Below, piece after piece: positions 59,113-64,000 of a stretch of DNA of 64,000 nucleotides (positions are counted from its first letter, which is position 1; every line of letters starts with the position of its first letter). Below the pieces are notes generated by a model. That model saw only the letters and a list, made by a program, of their open reading frames with translations, ran no database searches and was not told the DNA's origin. A program made the translations under genes and the position numbers. The stretch is from NCBI GenBank assembly GCA_947502265.1, contig CANMZB010000008.1:124001-188000 (forward strand), given 5' to 3'. The DNA is from an uncultured Sulfitobacter sp. (GTDB lineage: Bacteria > Pseudomonadota > Alphaproteobacteria > Rhodobacterales > Rhodobacteraceae).

Positions 59113-59742
59113 CTAGCGCAGTCCAAGCTGGCTTGCATGCCAAGCGGCTTCGGCGCGCGAGCTGATTCCAAGCTTGCTGTAAATGATCTTGATGTAACCG
59201 GCTACAGTGGAGGCAGCGATGCCCATTTCGGTTGCGACTTCTGCATTGCGCAAACCATTCCCGATTAACCGCAGGACTTCAGTTTCCCGTTCAGTGAGGT
59301 TATGTTTTTGCGAACTGGCGGGACCTGTCAGCCTGAAATGCTCCATGATCCTGCGCGCGATCGAGGGTGAGATGGCCGGGATGCCATGGGCCAGTTGTTC
59401 GAGATGACGTATAAGGACAGCCTCTTCGCTTTCCTTGAGCAAGTAGCCGTCTGCTCCCGCTGAAAGGGCCGCGACGATACTGGCATCGTCACCCATCACG
59501 GTTGTCACAACCTTGATCGAGGCCGGGTTTTCAAGCGTTAGCGTGCGAAGCACGTCAATGCCCGAGCCGTCGGGCAACCCTAGGTCGATCAGTGCAAGAT
59601 CGACTTTCGATGAGGCAAGCCTCTTTCCGGAGCGTACCCCTTCCGCGAGCATGATATTTGCGTCGGGATAGATTTTACGGGCGATATTTTCGAGCCAAAG
59701 ACGCACTTCTAGCAAGTCCTCCACGATGAGTATGTGCTTCAT
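59113..59742 (-). CDS. NarL/LuxR-type response regulator
   Basis: A 209-residue regulator. The receiver domain starts MKHILIVEDLLEVRLWLEN, with the phospho-acceptor Asp in ALIDLGLPDGSGID and the conserved lysine region YLLKESEEA; the C-terminal LuxR HTH is LTERETEVLRLIGNGLRNAEV. Phosphorylated by the adjacent kinase (ATGA overlap), it presumably activates genes such as the divergent lipoprotein and Slam-like pair; the target is inferred from position. A terminator lies downstream at 58.85 kb. Confidence 0.93.
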   Translation of the reverse strand: MKHILIVEDLLEVRLWLENIARKIYPDANIMLAEGVRSGKRLASSKVDLALIDLGLPDGSGIDVLRTLTLENPASIKVVTTVMGDDASIVAALSAGADGYLLKESEEAVLIRHLEQLAHGIPAISPSIARRIMEHFRLTGPASSQKHNLTERETEVLRLIGNGLRNAEVATEMGIAASTVAGYIKIIYSKLGISSRAEAAWHASQLGLR

Positions 59743-61904
59743 AACGCGGCTCCCACTCGAGGCTGTTCGATAGGAAACCGGGCAAACAGCACGGTGCCGA
59801 ACGCGTCGCTTTTCAAATCGAATACGCCACCCAAATTGGCAACACGGTTGGCGAGGTTGCTAATACCATTCCCTTTGGGGGAACTGTGCGGATCGAAACC
59901 GAGCCCATCATCACGCAAAGTGACTAAGAGTTCAGGGGCGGTATACAACAGCGCGTACACCACATTCTTCGCGCCTGAGTGACGAACGACGTTATTCGTC
60001 CCCTCGCGGAAGAGCGCCCGCAGCGTTTGCACGACCATTGGATCAATCTCGACATCAGGCAGCTCTGAATAGCGCCACTCCACAGCGATGTCTGCCACCT
60101 CGAAGTGGGTCGAGGCTTCGGCCCTCAGATCGGCGATAAGGCTGTGGAGCGCGCGTTTTTGTTTATCTGGATGAGCGGTGATCTCACGCAGATCTGTCAG
60201 GGTCTGGCGGATGAGGTCGTTCTTGCGGTCGCTGCGTGCGTCATGAAGGGCACTCACCAGCAGTACGCCGATGTTGTCGTGCATGTCACGGTTGATGCGC
60301 GTGCGTTCGGTCTCGATAGCATCAAGGTAGATCTGGTTCTGCTGCAGGCTTGTCTCGATAAAGCCGCTGATGGTTTTGGCACGCGTTAGGTCTTTGCTCG
60401 AGAACAAGCGCGTGCCTTGCTTGGCCCAGTCAAGGCGCAGAGCCGGCAAGCCAAAAACGGGCGCTATGGTCAGTGAAGCTCCATTCTCATGCAGTGCGGT
60501 TGTGACATCTGTACCTTTATCCAAAGGGGTGATGGACAAAGGGGAAAAAAGGTCATCCCAAAATTTGATCAGCACAGCCTCTTTTTGATGCGGCTCGATG
60601 CTATGGGGAATTTCGATGATGCGACGATAGATCTCTTCGGGGGGCATGGTGTCCTTTTTCTGGACCCAGTCGGCGACGCGTCTGCGAAAGGGCAGATATA
60701 GCATCCCGATTAAAGCGAGCGAGGTCGCGAAAGCGGGCGCGCGTTCAACCGAAAGACCATAGATCAATGCTGCATCTAACAGCAACAGTATCGCCACCCC
60801 AAACCCGTAGAACAGAATGCCAGCAGACCATGTGGGCAGATCAAACAACTGGTAGCGCGCAACGCCGAGCGCGATCCCTGCATAGATCAAAAGAAAGAAC
60901 AGGAATGCGGTACTTTGCGGCACCAAGACCTCGCGTCCCAGCAGCGTTGGCAGGATCGCAGTGATGACAAAACCACCAGCCCCGAGCGCAACAGACACGC
61001 CCAACCAGCCCAGCATCGCACGGGCGGCGGGATCGCGGCGATTCACGATAAGCTGAAACGCGATGGCCCCCAGCAAGGCAAGCATGATAACCGCAACCGA
61101 ATCTTGTATAAGTCCGACGTGCCGTGGCCAGTCAGCAATCTGGATAAAAAACATGACACTGCCAATGAGAACAGCAGGCAGGGGTAAGATAATACGCGGT
61201 ACGATCTGGCGCGGATAGATCAGGAACAATGTCAGGATTCCAATCCCAAATACAAATGTGCCAATGCTGTTGATGTGGCTTGCTGCTTTGAACACCCCGT
61301 ACCCAAGCGCCAGTTCGCGCGCGCTATATAACCCCGCAGCCCCCGACGACATCGCCAGACCGACACCTGTTAACAACACCATCCAAGCCGCAAGATCGCG
61401 TGTTCTAAGGCAAACAAGCCAAATTCCTATGATCAGCCCAACAAAGCCCACCGTCAGTTGCGTCCAGAACTTGATCGGCAGGTAAGAGATCTCGCGCCTT
61501 TCCCGCACTTTGGCCAATAGGGTGGTTTGCGCTTTTCCGTTCGAAACCGTCACCGACACCAGACCGCTGGTGAGCGCCTGAAAAAGCTGTTCTTGCTGCA
61601 GGTAAAAGTCCTTGGGCCCGCTCTCGCCGCCTATCATGTCGGGCTCTTCGATCAGGGTGACAGCGCTTACCTCGATAGGTGGTTTGCCTACCTCTCCGAT
61701 GCTGAGCAGCCTTTGAGAAATTGCAGATGTCGGCAGATCACTGCTTTGTTCGATCCCTGAAATAACGAGATACGCCCCATCGGCCTGCAGCCGTATTCCA
61801 AGCGAAGGCTGTGAGAGAGCCAGGAAAAGTACCCAAATGCCTACCAACAGGCTGCCAATCGTACATCCTGCAAAAATCAGCCCTGGTGCATACCATGCTC
61901 TCAC
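59739..61904 (-). CDS. Membrane sensor histidine kinase (NarL type, HisKA_3)
   Basis: A 721-residue kinase. An N-terminal transmembrane helix (about residues 7-30) is followed by an exposed region of about 120 residues and then a multi-helix membrane domain (roughly residues 148-390). In the last third lie the HisKA_3 motif RINRDMHDNIGVLL with the phospho-acceptor His, and an HATPase with GTNNVVRHSGAKN, DDGLGFDP and GNGISNLANRV. No known input domain is recognised in the external part. It is divergent from the lipoprotein gene and overlaps the regulator gene. Confidence 0.9.
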   Translation of the reverse strand: MRAWYAPGLIFAGCTIGSLLVGIWVLFLALSQPSLGIRLQADGAYLVISGIEQSSDLPTSAISQRLLSIGEVGKPPIEVSAVTLIEEPDMIGGESGPKDFYLQQEQLFQALTSGLVSVTVSNGKAQTTLLAKVRERREISYLPIKFWTQLTVGFVGLIIGIWLVCLRTRDLAAWMVLLTGVGLAMSSGAAGLYSARELALGYGVFKAASHINSIGTFVFGIGILTLFLIYPRQIVPRIILPLPAVLIGSVMFFIQIADWPRHVGLIQDSVAVIMLALLGAIAFQLIVNRRDPAARAMLGWLGVSVALGAGGFVITAILPTLLGREVLVPQSTAFLFFLLIYAGIALGVARYQLFDLPTWSAGILFYGFGVAILLLLDAALIYGLSVERAPAFATSLALIGMLYLPFRRRVADWVQKKDTMPPEEIYRRIIEIPHSIEPHQKEAVLIKFWDDLFSPLSITPLDKGTDVTTALHENGASLTIAPVFGLPALRLDWAKQGTRLFSSKDLTRAKTISGFIETSLQQNQIYLDAIETERTRINRDMHDNIGVLLVSALHDARSDRKNDLIRQTLTDLREITAHPDKQKRALHSLIADLRAEASTHFEVADIAVEWRYSELPDVEIDPMVVQTLRALFREGTNNVVRHSGAKNVVYALLYTAPELLVTLRDDGLGFDPHSSPKGNGISNLANRVANLGGVFDLKSDAFGTVLFARFPIEQPRVGAAL

Positions 61905-62117
61905 AGCTCGCGTCCTCTAACCGTAAAGAAATTCATTAATAGAAATAACCCTAAGATGGGTCAGGGTTTACCGCCAATTCTTTTTCGCGATTACCCCCTG
62001 AACGGGGGGCAGCAGGAACGAAGAAATTATCAAATGATGAACAAAGCTCGGATTGTGGCGGTGAAACAGGCCTCACACCGGAGAGTGATCGAAGTTGATT
62101 TTGGAGTACCTAAAACT

Positions 62118-62918
62118 ATGCATATTAAAAGCATATTTAAGACGGCAACCGCAGTTGTAGCAGTTCTATCGCTGGCTGGCTGTTTAGGCAGCAACTCGTC
62201 AAGCACGCCGACAAGCGCCCCTTCGGGCAGCACCGGCGGCAGCACAGCCGGTGGAACAACCGGTGGCGGCACGACCGGTGGAACAACCGGTGGCGGCACA
62301 ACCGGTGGAACAACCGGTGGCGGCACAACCGGCGGATCGACGACTGGTGGCGGGACCACTGGTGGCACCACAGGCGGTAGTACAAGCACTCAAGCCGCCT
62401 TTGACACCAAGTCGCAAAGCTACATCTTTTTAGTGCCGACAAGTCGGCCCATCACTGGCACCGCGAATTACACCGGCGAAATCTCCATGCTCACCCAAGC
62501 CAACGCCGCTGATGCTGCCGAAGCAGTGGTTGGTAATCTCAACATGGGCGTGAATTTCGGAAGTGGTGTTACAAATCCGGTTACGGCGACAGCTGGTAAC
62601 TTTTCGGGCAACGTAAACGGGCAAGCAACCACTTTAACCGGCACTCTGAGTACCGCAAATGCAATAGCCGGTGATGTAAATTCAGTTACTGCTACGACCA
62701 ATCAAGTGGGCACAATAACCGGTGTCACGGCCACCCTGCGCGGTGCTGTCAGCGGCCCGGGCGGCGGGTTGTCGGGCGACGCCCGAATGATCCTAAACGG
62801 AAACTTAAAGGAAGCGGGCGGCGCAAAAATCTCGGGGGGGCACCAGACCACGATCTTCCCGACGGGCGGGGGAACCTCGATCGCAACGGGTGGCAGCCTG
62901 TACGCCGACAAAAACTAA
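62118..62918 (+). CDS. Surface lipoprotein candidate with Gly/Thr repeat linker (TbpB-like C-terminus)
   Basis: A 266-residue lipoprotein. The signal peptide ends in the lipobox LAGC at about residue 19-22. A Ser/Thr/Gly-rich linker (about residues 23-90) carries GGTTGGGTT repeats. The remaining part is glycine- and threonine-rich beta-strand sequence, with NFSGNVNGQATTLTG and a final GGG segment, resembling transferrin-binding-protein-like beta-barrel domains of Slam substrates. The start at 62118 is chosen for the signal peptide, although the ribosome site is distant. It is followed three bases later by a Slam-like gene, its probable exporter. Confidence 0.75.
   Translation: MHIKSIFKTATAVVAVLSLAGCLGSNSSSTPTSAPSGSTGGSTAGGTTGGGTTGGTTGGGTTGGTTGGGTTGGSTTGGGTTGGTTGGSTSTQAAFDTKSQSYIFLVPTSRPITGTANYTGEISMLTQANAADAAEAVVGNLNMGVNFGSGVTNPVTATAGNFSGNVNGQATTLTGTLSTANAIAGDVNSVTATTNQVGTITGVTATLRGAVSGPGGGLSGDARMILNGNLKEAGGAKISGGHQTTIFPTGGGTSIATGGSLYADKN
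62250..62330. repeat. Three copies of a 27-bp in-frame repeat in the lipoprotein linker
   Basis: Units start at 62250, 62277 and 62304 and encode G-G-T-T-G-G-G-T-T. One synonymous base (acg for aca) in the first unit is the only difference. A degenerate continuation follows to about 62387. Copy number can change without loss of frame. Confidence 0.92.
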
Positions 62919-62921
62919 ACT

Positions 62922-64000
62922 GTGCATAAATTTCTGTGCATCTTCGTGTTGGGGCTGGGCGTGCTTTGCGCACAGCCCCATATCGCACGCGCCGCCCCGA
63001 ATACCTGGCCGCGCGCACTTGAGTTAATGGCCGCAGGCCAGGTCGAAGCGGCGCTGCCCTTGCTCGAGCGTTTGGTATCGGACAATCCCAATGATAAGAA
63101 TTACCGGTTCGAACTGGCAGTGGCCTTGTACCGCCTCGAAAAGAATTTTCGCGCGAAATGGCAGTTGGAACAGATACGTGGCGCCCGTCTGACGCCTGCC
63201 GAGTCGCAGATGGTAGAGACCTTCCTGGCCCAGATCGCAGCGCGCAGCGAGTGGTCGGGTTCTTTTGAAATTGCTGTAAAACCCGAAAGTAATATGGGCC
63301 AGAAAACCGATGTCGAGACCGTCAATATCGGTGGTCTCGACTTTGCACTCAACCCCGATGCGCGTGCAGAACCCGGAATGAGCCTGCTGGTCACTGCTGG
63401 CCTGCGCTATACCCCGAAGATCACTGAACAATGGGGCGCCGTTTTTTCCTTGGCGACGCATCTCCGATATAACGAGCGCGTCAGCCTGCGCGACTATCAG
63501 GTGTTCGCGCGGACAGGATTACAATATGCGCCGGATGCACGCAGCAGTACTGCCGCAGGAATTCAGCAAGAATACCGTTGGATTGGGAATGCCCCCTATT
63601 CGCGCACCAGCGGCATCTGGGCGGAATATGCCCGCCTCATCGGCACACGCGGCAGGTTAGATTTCGGGGTCAGTTTGGGTTTGACACGCCATGATGTCGC
63701 TCTGCCGGACAGTCGTCGTGGCCTGTTTAGCGCGAGCTATTCCCACGCAATCACAAGCAACGCGCGTGTCACGGTTTCTGGCTATTATGAGAAGACTTTG
63801 GGTAACCTGCCCAATCTGTCGGGGACCCGCACGGCCCTGAGCATATCGGGGCTTTATGCATGGCGGGGTGGGTTAATGACGTCTTTGGAACTGGGCCAGC
63901 ACTACGACAACAGGAACGGACCGGAGCCGCTGTTCGGTCTCACAAGAGAGGATGCGAAAACATCGCTCTCGGCAACCATATACCACCGCGATTTGCACAT
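62922..64000 (+). CDS. Slam-like outer-membrane protein (DUF560; 3' part beyond window)
   Basis: Open to the window end, at least 359 residues. A signal peptide (MHKFLCIFVLGLGVLCAQ, GTG start, no clear ribosome site) precedes a TPR-like part (AAGQVEAALPLLERLVSDNP and YRFELAVALYRLEKNFRA). After about residue 100, repeated amphipathic beta strands follow (SGSFEIAVKPESNMGQKT, GLRYTPKITEQWGAVFS), as in the DUF560 barrel of surface lipoprotein assembly modifiers. Slam proteins move lipoproteins to the cell surface. Placement directly after a lipoprotein gene supports this. Ordinary porin-like proteins with TPR are an alternative. Confidence 0.78.
   Translation, partial: MHKFLCIFVLGLGVLCAQPHIARAAPNTWPRALELMAAGQVEAALPLLERLVSDNPNDKNYRFELAVALYRLEKNFRAKWQLEQIRGARLTPAESQMVETFLAQIAARSEWSGSFEIAVKPESNMGQKTDVETVNIGGLDFALNPDARAEPGMSLLVTAGLRYTPKITEQWGAVFSLATHLRYNERVSLRDYQVFARTGLQYAPDARSSTAAGIQQEYRWIGNAPYSRTSGIWAEYARLIGTRGRLDFGVSLGLTRHDVALPDSRRGLFSASYSHAITSNARVTVSGYYEKTLGNLPNLSGTRTALSISGLYAWRGGLMTSLELGQHYDNRNGPEPLFGLTREDAKTSLSATIYHRDLH

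Follow-up and report, generated by a model that had tools for sequence, protein, structure and literature searches.

Pairs made of an exported lipoprotein and an outer membrane protein of the Slam type (type XI secretion system [T11SS]) and the barrel rule that their cargo follows are already known, as set out in the relevant passages of PMC5449769, PMC8406197, and PMC9090332. In Slam1/TbpB and Slam-fHbp (Neisseria), HrpB/HrpC, and NilB/NilC (Xenorhabdus), as in the locus described here, a PF04575 barrel stands behind a TPR part (putative in our locus), and the adjoining exported protein ends in a barrel of the TbpB/fHbp kind, predicted in our case. PF04575 takes in PgaA-like exporters too, according to a passage in PMC8406197; a neighbor of the PgaA system was not noticed beside our pair. 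A preliminary description of the window (the whole stretch of 64,000 nucleotides analyzed here) had called such pairs little studied in marine alphaproteobacteria; this holds in part, but the main text of PMC12282271 reports a survey of 145 marine "cluster 3" T11SS proteins. The cluster 3 locus, as presented there, resembles ours in that its hosts are marine and come from the same broad group and in having a Slam adjoining a lipoprotein, whereas its partners DUF1194, glyoxalase, and ThyX were not among the ORFs read beside our pair. A locus of the cluster 3 type exists separately in the window's genome, on contig C11 (L094:5112-9997). In this second T11SS locus, Pfam identifies DUF1194 (211.9 bits), glyoxalase, lipoprotein, and ThyX-like genes are recognized by eye, and there is no kinase match of the kind described below in its vicinity. 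The terms "histidine kinase," "response regulator," and "two-component" have 0 occurrences in the main text of PMC12282271, and our literature search, mostly confined to papers outside subscription journals, found neither a T11SS tied to a two-component system nor anything on the regulation of environmental T11SS pairs.

The Slam gene of the window begins with a GTG at 62922 on the plus strand and runs through 64000 to window-equivalent position 64112, thus ending 112 bases beyond the window on the same contig. The window itself spans positions 124001 to 188000 of this contig (G000:C8). We obtained the sequence past 64 kb and ran the profile search that the preliminary description had proposed: the complete protein has 396 aa and matches PF04575 (DUF560) over the full model (positions 1 to 288 of 288) at 63.1 bits (cutoff, 22; E = 4e-17), preceded by a short TPR stretch at residues ∼28 to 85 (TPR_16, 5.3e-6; TPR_Slam, 0.0027; all below their cutoffs). 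Its assignment as a true Slam/T11SS outer membrane protein is therefore firmly supported by sequence comparison. A single-sequence search with this protein found no relative in the genome contigs searched, its relatives having come from a separate search of genomes, and there was no relative of use among the solved-structure sequences. About 3.4 kb past the gene, at the contig end (L002:11543-11932), lies a transposase-like helix-turn-helix ORF, which we take to be of the IS21 type.

Three bases upstream of the Slam gene ends the gene of the predicted T11SS cargo, a lipoprotein of 266 aa (62118 to 62918, plus strand), in which we found the lipobox, the Gly/Thr linker, and the beta-rich C terminus that had been attributed to it. 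The signal peptide ends in ..LSLAGC and has a lipobox by the usual rule (MHIKSIFKTATAVVAVLSLAGC); Cys22 is invariant across 36 aligned cargo-family sequences, whose starts were chosen by the lipobox rule. The Gly/Thr-rich repeat linker covers about residues 30 to 90 (62205 to 62390, limits approximate) and has low pLDDT in the AlphaFold2 model; a Gly-rich stretch occupies the same position in many relatives (alignment A2). The lipoprotein and the Slam are a sound but divergent member of the known pair type.

Divergent from this pair, as the preliminary description had noted, are the genes of a sensor histidine kinase of 721 aa (59739 to 61904) and of a NarL/LuxR-type response regulator (59113 to 59742; GerE, 1.5e-15; Response_reg, 1e-13), both on the minus strand. 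The kinase has no Pfam match at an E value of ≤0.01 and is covered in part by NCBIfam kinase models. Among 44 kinase relatives examined at this same threshold, HATPase_c is found in 42 and HisKA_3 in 24, with the window kinase matched weakly; H542, N638, D665, G667, G678, and G680 are invariant among 44 aligned kinases, and the profile of the family matches DesK. The DHp histidine, the HATPase boxes, and the REC and GerE domains of the regulator place the predicted two-component system with the HisKA_3/NarL kind. The structural model of the kinase (mean pLDDT, 87) consists of a first transmembrane helix, TM1 (residues 7 to 30), periplasmic strands and helices (residues 37 to 132), a set of helices (residues 144 to 384), and then the kinase domains. 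PDZ_6 was found in 2/44 relatives at an E value of ≤0.01 and in 4/44 at an E value of ≤1 (best, 5.6e-8; the piece from L202 matches at residues 22 to 55). The window kinase has no PDZ match, though its model puts strands and helices at that place, and there was no PDZ chain among the 50 structure matches listed for the model. Residues 140 to 353 align with a designed GPCR-like fold (Z, 17.6; root mean square deviation [RMSD], 3.4 over 203 residues) and, at a Z of about 15, with receptors that include mGlu2 and GABA(B), in a type of search where unrelated helical bundles reach a Z of about 13 to 14. A second kinase lineage is devoid of the first half of the periplasmic PDZ-like domain, which argues against a role of this domain in peptide binding in general. 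The nearest relative of the window kinase among the kinases compared is that of Sagittula marina (56%). The window's genome contains a second, related kinase in pieces with an internal stop (G000:C1, L091:5219-7379), adjoining a regulator.

We evaluated the association between this kinase and the Slam-cargo pair in several sets of genomes. The family sample comprised 295 genomes, 15 of which have a strong kinase (match at 1e-50 or better; of 26 family genomes matched by the kinase, 11 fall below this level and were left out), and a PF04575 gene is found within 2.5 kb of the kinase in 10/15. Two more (G037 and G229) have a lipoprotein adjoining the kinase and no intact Slam, and three (G234, G284, and G095, the last with its kinase at a contig end) have no Slam or cargo match beside it. 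At the G037 locus (G037:C84, L082:6290-9797), a stop interrupts the kinase and what is left of the Slam is a 97-aa remnant, next to a lipoprotein and a regulator that look intact; decay there seems to affect kinase and Slam jointly. The G229 locus (L084:5645-10832) has three tandem cargo-family lipoproteins with a kinase and a regulator, no Slam match, and a neighboring gene that presumably resembles the C terminus of TamB. In the window's genus (58 genomes), 12 genomes have the kinase and 10 have a close Slam, which adjoins the kinase in 10/10, with 0 close Slams lacking the kinase (Fisher, 1.3e-9, computed ignoring shared ancestry; 12 of 22 Slam rows, weaker than 1e-40 and at best 3.7e-18, were left out).

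When named genomes were searched with the kinase, the best 80 of the 146 loci were kept; of the 83 loci then scanned, 29 gave a Slam match and 33 a cargo match, the 29 including a weak match (L164) that stands outside the following tally. From 108 loci minus 12 duplicates we retained 96 distinct kinases, a nonrandom sample gathered with mostly Slam-linked queries and with some short contigs: 40 are located beside a Slam (35 with a cargo), 4 beside a cargo alone (among them two weak cases, L220, with a 5e-4 match to a 113-aa ORF, and L205, at 1e-5), 7 beside an autotransporter, and 45 beside neither. The cargo match of L086 stands at 6e-4, and no Slam or cargo match was found near 7 class-level kinase relatives from outside the family. 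With the PF04575 match at 4e-17 and the four genes recurring jointly in dozens of other loci, the arrangement of Slam, cargo, kinase, and regulator is far above chance, and the recurrence of the lipoprotein-Slam pair with the sensor, the regulator, and their predicted operator is strong as linkage.

The pair could nonetheless be an ordinary T11SS unit, with the two-component system a mere neighbor that controls other genes and the linkage a trace of shared island ancestry, a reading that we consider unlikely. It is favored by the existence of kinase relatives without any Slam and by the single divergent layout of 28/40 linked cassettes (27 fully divergent like the window and 1 divergent with the regulator cut by a contig end). 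Linkage is kept, however, in other gene orders: 5 tandem kinase-regulator-cargo-Slam loci, 4 Slam-kinase-regulator loci, 1 convergent locus, and 1 with the order cargo-Slam-kinase-regulator; 1 further divergent locus has no cargo match. The loci L112, L113, L114, and L115 are of the Slam-kinase-regulator order with no cargo match adjoining, and the gene beside the Slam in L112 and L114 is one that we take to resemble hemF. Across 33 complete cassettes (2 of 35 were left out for not having all four genes), gene distances correlate at 0.63 to 0.88 (Slam-cargo, 0.88; kinase-Slam, 0.84; kinase-regulator, 0.83), with partial correlations of 0.67 for Slam-cargo given the kinase and 0.16 for kinase-cargo given the Slam. 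Also against a mere neighborhood, the window kinase and the Slam/cargo pair differ in their nearest relatives after Sagittula. Slam and cargo are then closest to L116 (37% and 44%, respectively), whose kinase is just 32% identical; the window Slam is 43 to 46% identical to those of L112 to L115, whose kinases are at 30 to 31%; and the window kinase resembles cassettes whose Slams are 30 to 33% identical. By these comparisons, exchange seems to have moved the control part and the export part each as a unit, and yet they are still linked.

The remaining evidence against a mere neighborhood is a palindrome, CCCCCTGAACGGGGGG, located in the gap that separates the kinase gene from the divergent lipoprotein gene (61994 to 62009) and recurring across kinase loci with the consensus CCCC(T/C)GTTC(A/G)GGGG. 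A CCCC-gap-GGGG scan of kinase upstream regions returned a common center, GTTC or GAAC, that had not been requested; since the search pattern itself dictates the C4/G4 arms, only the center and the flanks of the letter counts are informative. With the gap fixed at N6, the center NG(TT/AA)CN was present in 53/86 matches near the kinase start versus 30/86 elsewhere (P = 7e-4), and the density of such matches is much higher close to the kinase (86 in 71.5 kb) than elsewhere (86 in 1.53 Mb). The strict palindrome occurs near the kinase start in 52/96 loci, versus about 1.4 expected from the remainder of the same loci; with more variants and the whole cassette span, 74/96 loci have it, versus 1/96 for a reversed control pattern, which is narrower. 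It is absent from 22/96 loci, including 8/40 Slam loci, 7 of these 8 belonging to the divergent second kinase lineage. In the 295 family genomes, the 16-base form tracks the kinase (10/15 kinase genomes versus 4/280 others; P = 2.4e-12), whereas the reversed 16-base control was found in 17 genomes and in 0/15 kinase genomes, the site totals being alike (19 and 18). In 8 of the 10 kinase genomes with the 16-base form, comparison of coordinates placed a site inside the cassette or at its edge.

Relaxed forms of the palindrome are common by chance, a point on the side of a mere neighborhood: in the genus, the 14-base pattern is at control level (18 sites versus 23 reversed, with 3/18 in cassettes), the one-mismatch count in the window's genome equals that of the reversed control (20/18 versus 19/21), and two mismatches give 6 matches in the window versus 6.9 expected. 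The window's genome has three further exact 14-base sites (on C9, C12, and C18), which were considered as a regulon beyond the cassette and rejected, as they lie inside unrelated-looking protein ORFs; with these sites intragenic and the one-mismatch count at control level, we claim no regulon there. We also considered that the cargo of L112 to L115 might be placed elsewhere under the palindrome, and rejected this too: 3/4 of these genomes have a distal site, with no cargo match there. Other kinase genomes have distal 16-base sites as well, and in 4/4 cases read a signal-peptide gene (by a crude rule) follows the site, the genes at such sites including a lipoprotein with a weak TbpB_B_D match (L254; 0.021) and a lytic transglycosylase (L253). 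Six sites read in the four kinase-free genomes gave 1 gene passing the signal-peptide rule, which is transporter-like. No sigma-70-like promoter was predicted between the divergent genes, and a literature search for the letters of the palindrome returned only four papers, all with unrelated titles.

Could the palindrome instead act as RNA in the divergent leader, as a hairpin, an attenuator, or a terminator-like element? It might fold into a C4-G4 stem that closes a loop of 6 bases, and prediction places two terminator-like hairpins close by (61946 to 61968, minus strand), versus 0.5 expected. These hairpins are not the palindrome, however, which in many loci lies about 50 to 140 bases upstream of both start codons. 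Read on the strand of the kinase, its center is, moreover, TT in some loci and AA in others, a variation that fits a DNA dyad better than an RNA tied to one strand. We regard the RNA explanation as improbable and propose that the palindrome is probably the operator of the regulator. The proposed control of the pair by the neighboring two-component system, a guess in the preliminary description, is backed by the conserved linkage and by the common palindrome.

We then analyzed the fold of the cargo, which had been called TbpB-like; the call stands through relatives, the family profile, and the predicted fold, while the window protein itself contributes no direct match, having none in Pfam at an E value of ≤1. 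TbpB_B_D was found in 9/36 aligned cargo-family members at an E value of ≤1 and in 4/36 at an E value of ≤0.01 (L205, 2.7e-11; L218, 4.7e-5; L201, 4.7e-4; L197, 0.0013), the window protein not being among them. Only L205 passes Pfam's cutoff for this domain, and it also matches FHBP_C. The cargo-family profile matches lactoferrin-binding protein B chains (2e-4, 0.002, and 0.029), amid which ranks a designed alphabody (0.0012) aligned in the linker, a match of the chance type. The AlphaFold2 model (36 aligned sequences; 149 residues with pLDDT of ≥90) has a single barrel in the C-terminal domain (residues ∼91 to 266), with nine strand elements from residues 115 to 265, one of them short; the TbpB-type C-terminal barrel of T11SS cargo is eight-stranded as published. 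The best structural alignment is with NHBA (Z, 12.3; RMSD, 3.4 over 133 residues; 18% identity), followed by fHbp variants (Z up to 11.8) and by TbpB and hemophilin (Z about 10), and these alignments support a predicted barrel of the TbpB kind. The OmpX, Ail, and OmpA barrels match nearly as well as NHBA and fHbp (Z, 9.6 to 11.6), and the Foldseek list is headed by PsbO of photosystem II (the sole match at an E value of ≤0.001; TM, 0.20), with NHBA next (1.2e-3); the cargo assignment is carried by sequence and neighborhood jointly.

Binding of metal, heme, or a host molecule, which the preliminary description had suggested for the lipoprotein, finds no support here. A role as a co-receptor passing iron or heme to a TonB-dependent receptor, like TbpB or hemophilin, would suit the kind of barrel and the 120/185 lipoprotein-bearing Slam clusters with such receptors reported in a passage of PMC5449769, but is very unlikely: between 57000 and the contig end there is no ORF of >410 aa, hence of receptor size, besides the kinase, a one-sequence phmmer scan for receptors (a weak test) matched 2/40 Slam cassette loci, and the modeled cargo has no handle or effector domain ahead of its barrel, where there is just a short helix besides the disordered linker of Gly and Thr.

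Other exported proteins are encoded beside the kinase in part of the loci. Eleven loci, with several near-copies among them, have an autotransporter near it, confirmed by PF03797 at four loci and recognized at the others by a profile built from those four; by record name, these loci belong to Sphingomonadales, Rhizobiaceae, Caulobacteraceae, Maricaulaceae, and mislabeled or mixed metagenome-assembled genomes (MAGs). The kinase locus of an "Accumulibacter" MAG (L176 and L177) looks like that of Novosphingobium hassiacum, and the record is possibly mislabeled. An RTX protein adjoins the kinase in G284, and in several further loci its neighbors are small lipoproteins or signal-peptide proteins (crude rule), the palindrome often lying in the gap. 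No exported-protein partner was visible beside the class-level kinase relatives in other families, so the association of kinase and exported protein is not a general rule. We tentatively raise the possibility, doubtful as it is, that sensors with a GPCR-like bundle, a periplasmic PDZ-like domain, and one operator, CCCCTGTTCAGGGG, constitute a widespread, undescribed family dedicated to surface display whatever the secretion route (T11SS pairs, autotransporters, RTX proteins, or lone exported lipoproteins), in which the periplasmic domain might read the assembly or backup of the exported protein and thereby close a feedback loop.

For the window itself, we consider it likely that the sensor, regulator, palindrome, lipoprotein, and Slam form one unit, a self-regulated type XI secretion cassette. 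The computed basis of this reading consists of the Slam family membership, the predicted cargo fold, the conserved linkage, the covariation of the genes, and the tie of the palindrome to kinase genomes; phosphotransfer, DNA binding, the direction of regulation, surface exposure, and cargo function are what we infer from it. The kinase, with its putative periplasmic PDZ-like domain and membrane helix bundle, would phosphorylate the NarL-type regulator, which would bind the palindrome and switch the divergent operons, kinase-regulator on one side and lipoprotein-Slam on the other. The lipoprotein would be exported by Sec, would be processed by signal peptidase II, and would be taken through the outer membrane by the Slam barrel, its Gly/Thr linker keeping the small TbpB-type barrel off the cell surface. 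Our best guess for the input signal, by analogy with ComP-like sensors, would be a cue from envelope assembly or a small hydrophobic ligand. The recurring sensor, regulator, and predicted operator make control of a T11SS pair directly testable in marine strains, and the palindrome offers a means to look for more surface proteins under the same control.

ComP of Bacillus is reported to have a PDZ domain between TM1 and TM2 (PMC9620489). The window kinase shares with it many transmembrane helices and the kinase domains that follow, and may share a PDZ-like domain at this place. ComA is, like the regulator of the window, of the LuxR type. Unlike ComP-ComA, the system described here is Gram negative and linked to surface-protein genes, with no ComX or ComQ noted in the cassette, and a second lineage of its kinase family has lost the first half of the PDZ-like domain. 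The cargo resembles NHBA, a neisserial surface lipoprotein with a flexible N-terminal part, in having one C-terminal barrel, and NHBA gave its best structural alignment. Compared with Slam1/TbpB, Slam-fHbp, HrpB/HrpC, and NilB/NilC, the TPR part of the window Slam is short (PF24575 is matched partly and below its cutoff), the cargo is one barrel on a Gly/Thr linker, and the cassette has a two-component system and no adjacent gene of TonB-receptor size. The Slam-cargo pair is of a known type; the conserved sensor, regulator, and predicted operator, through which the expression of the lipoprotein and its Slam would be regulated, are the new part.
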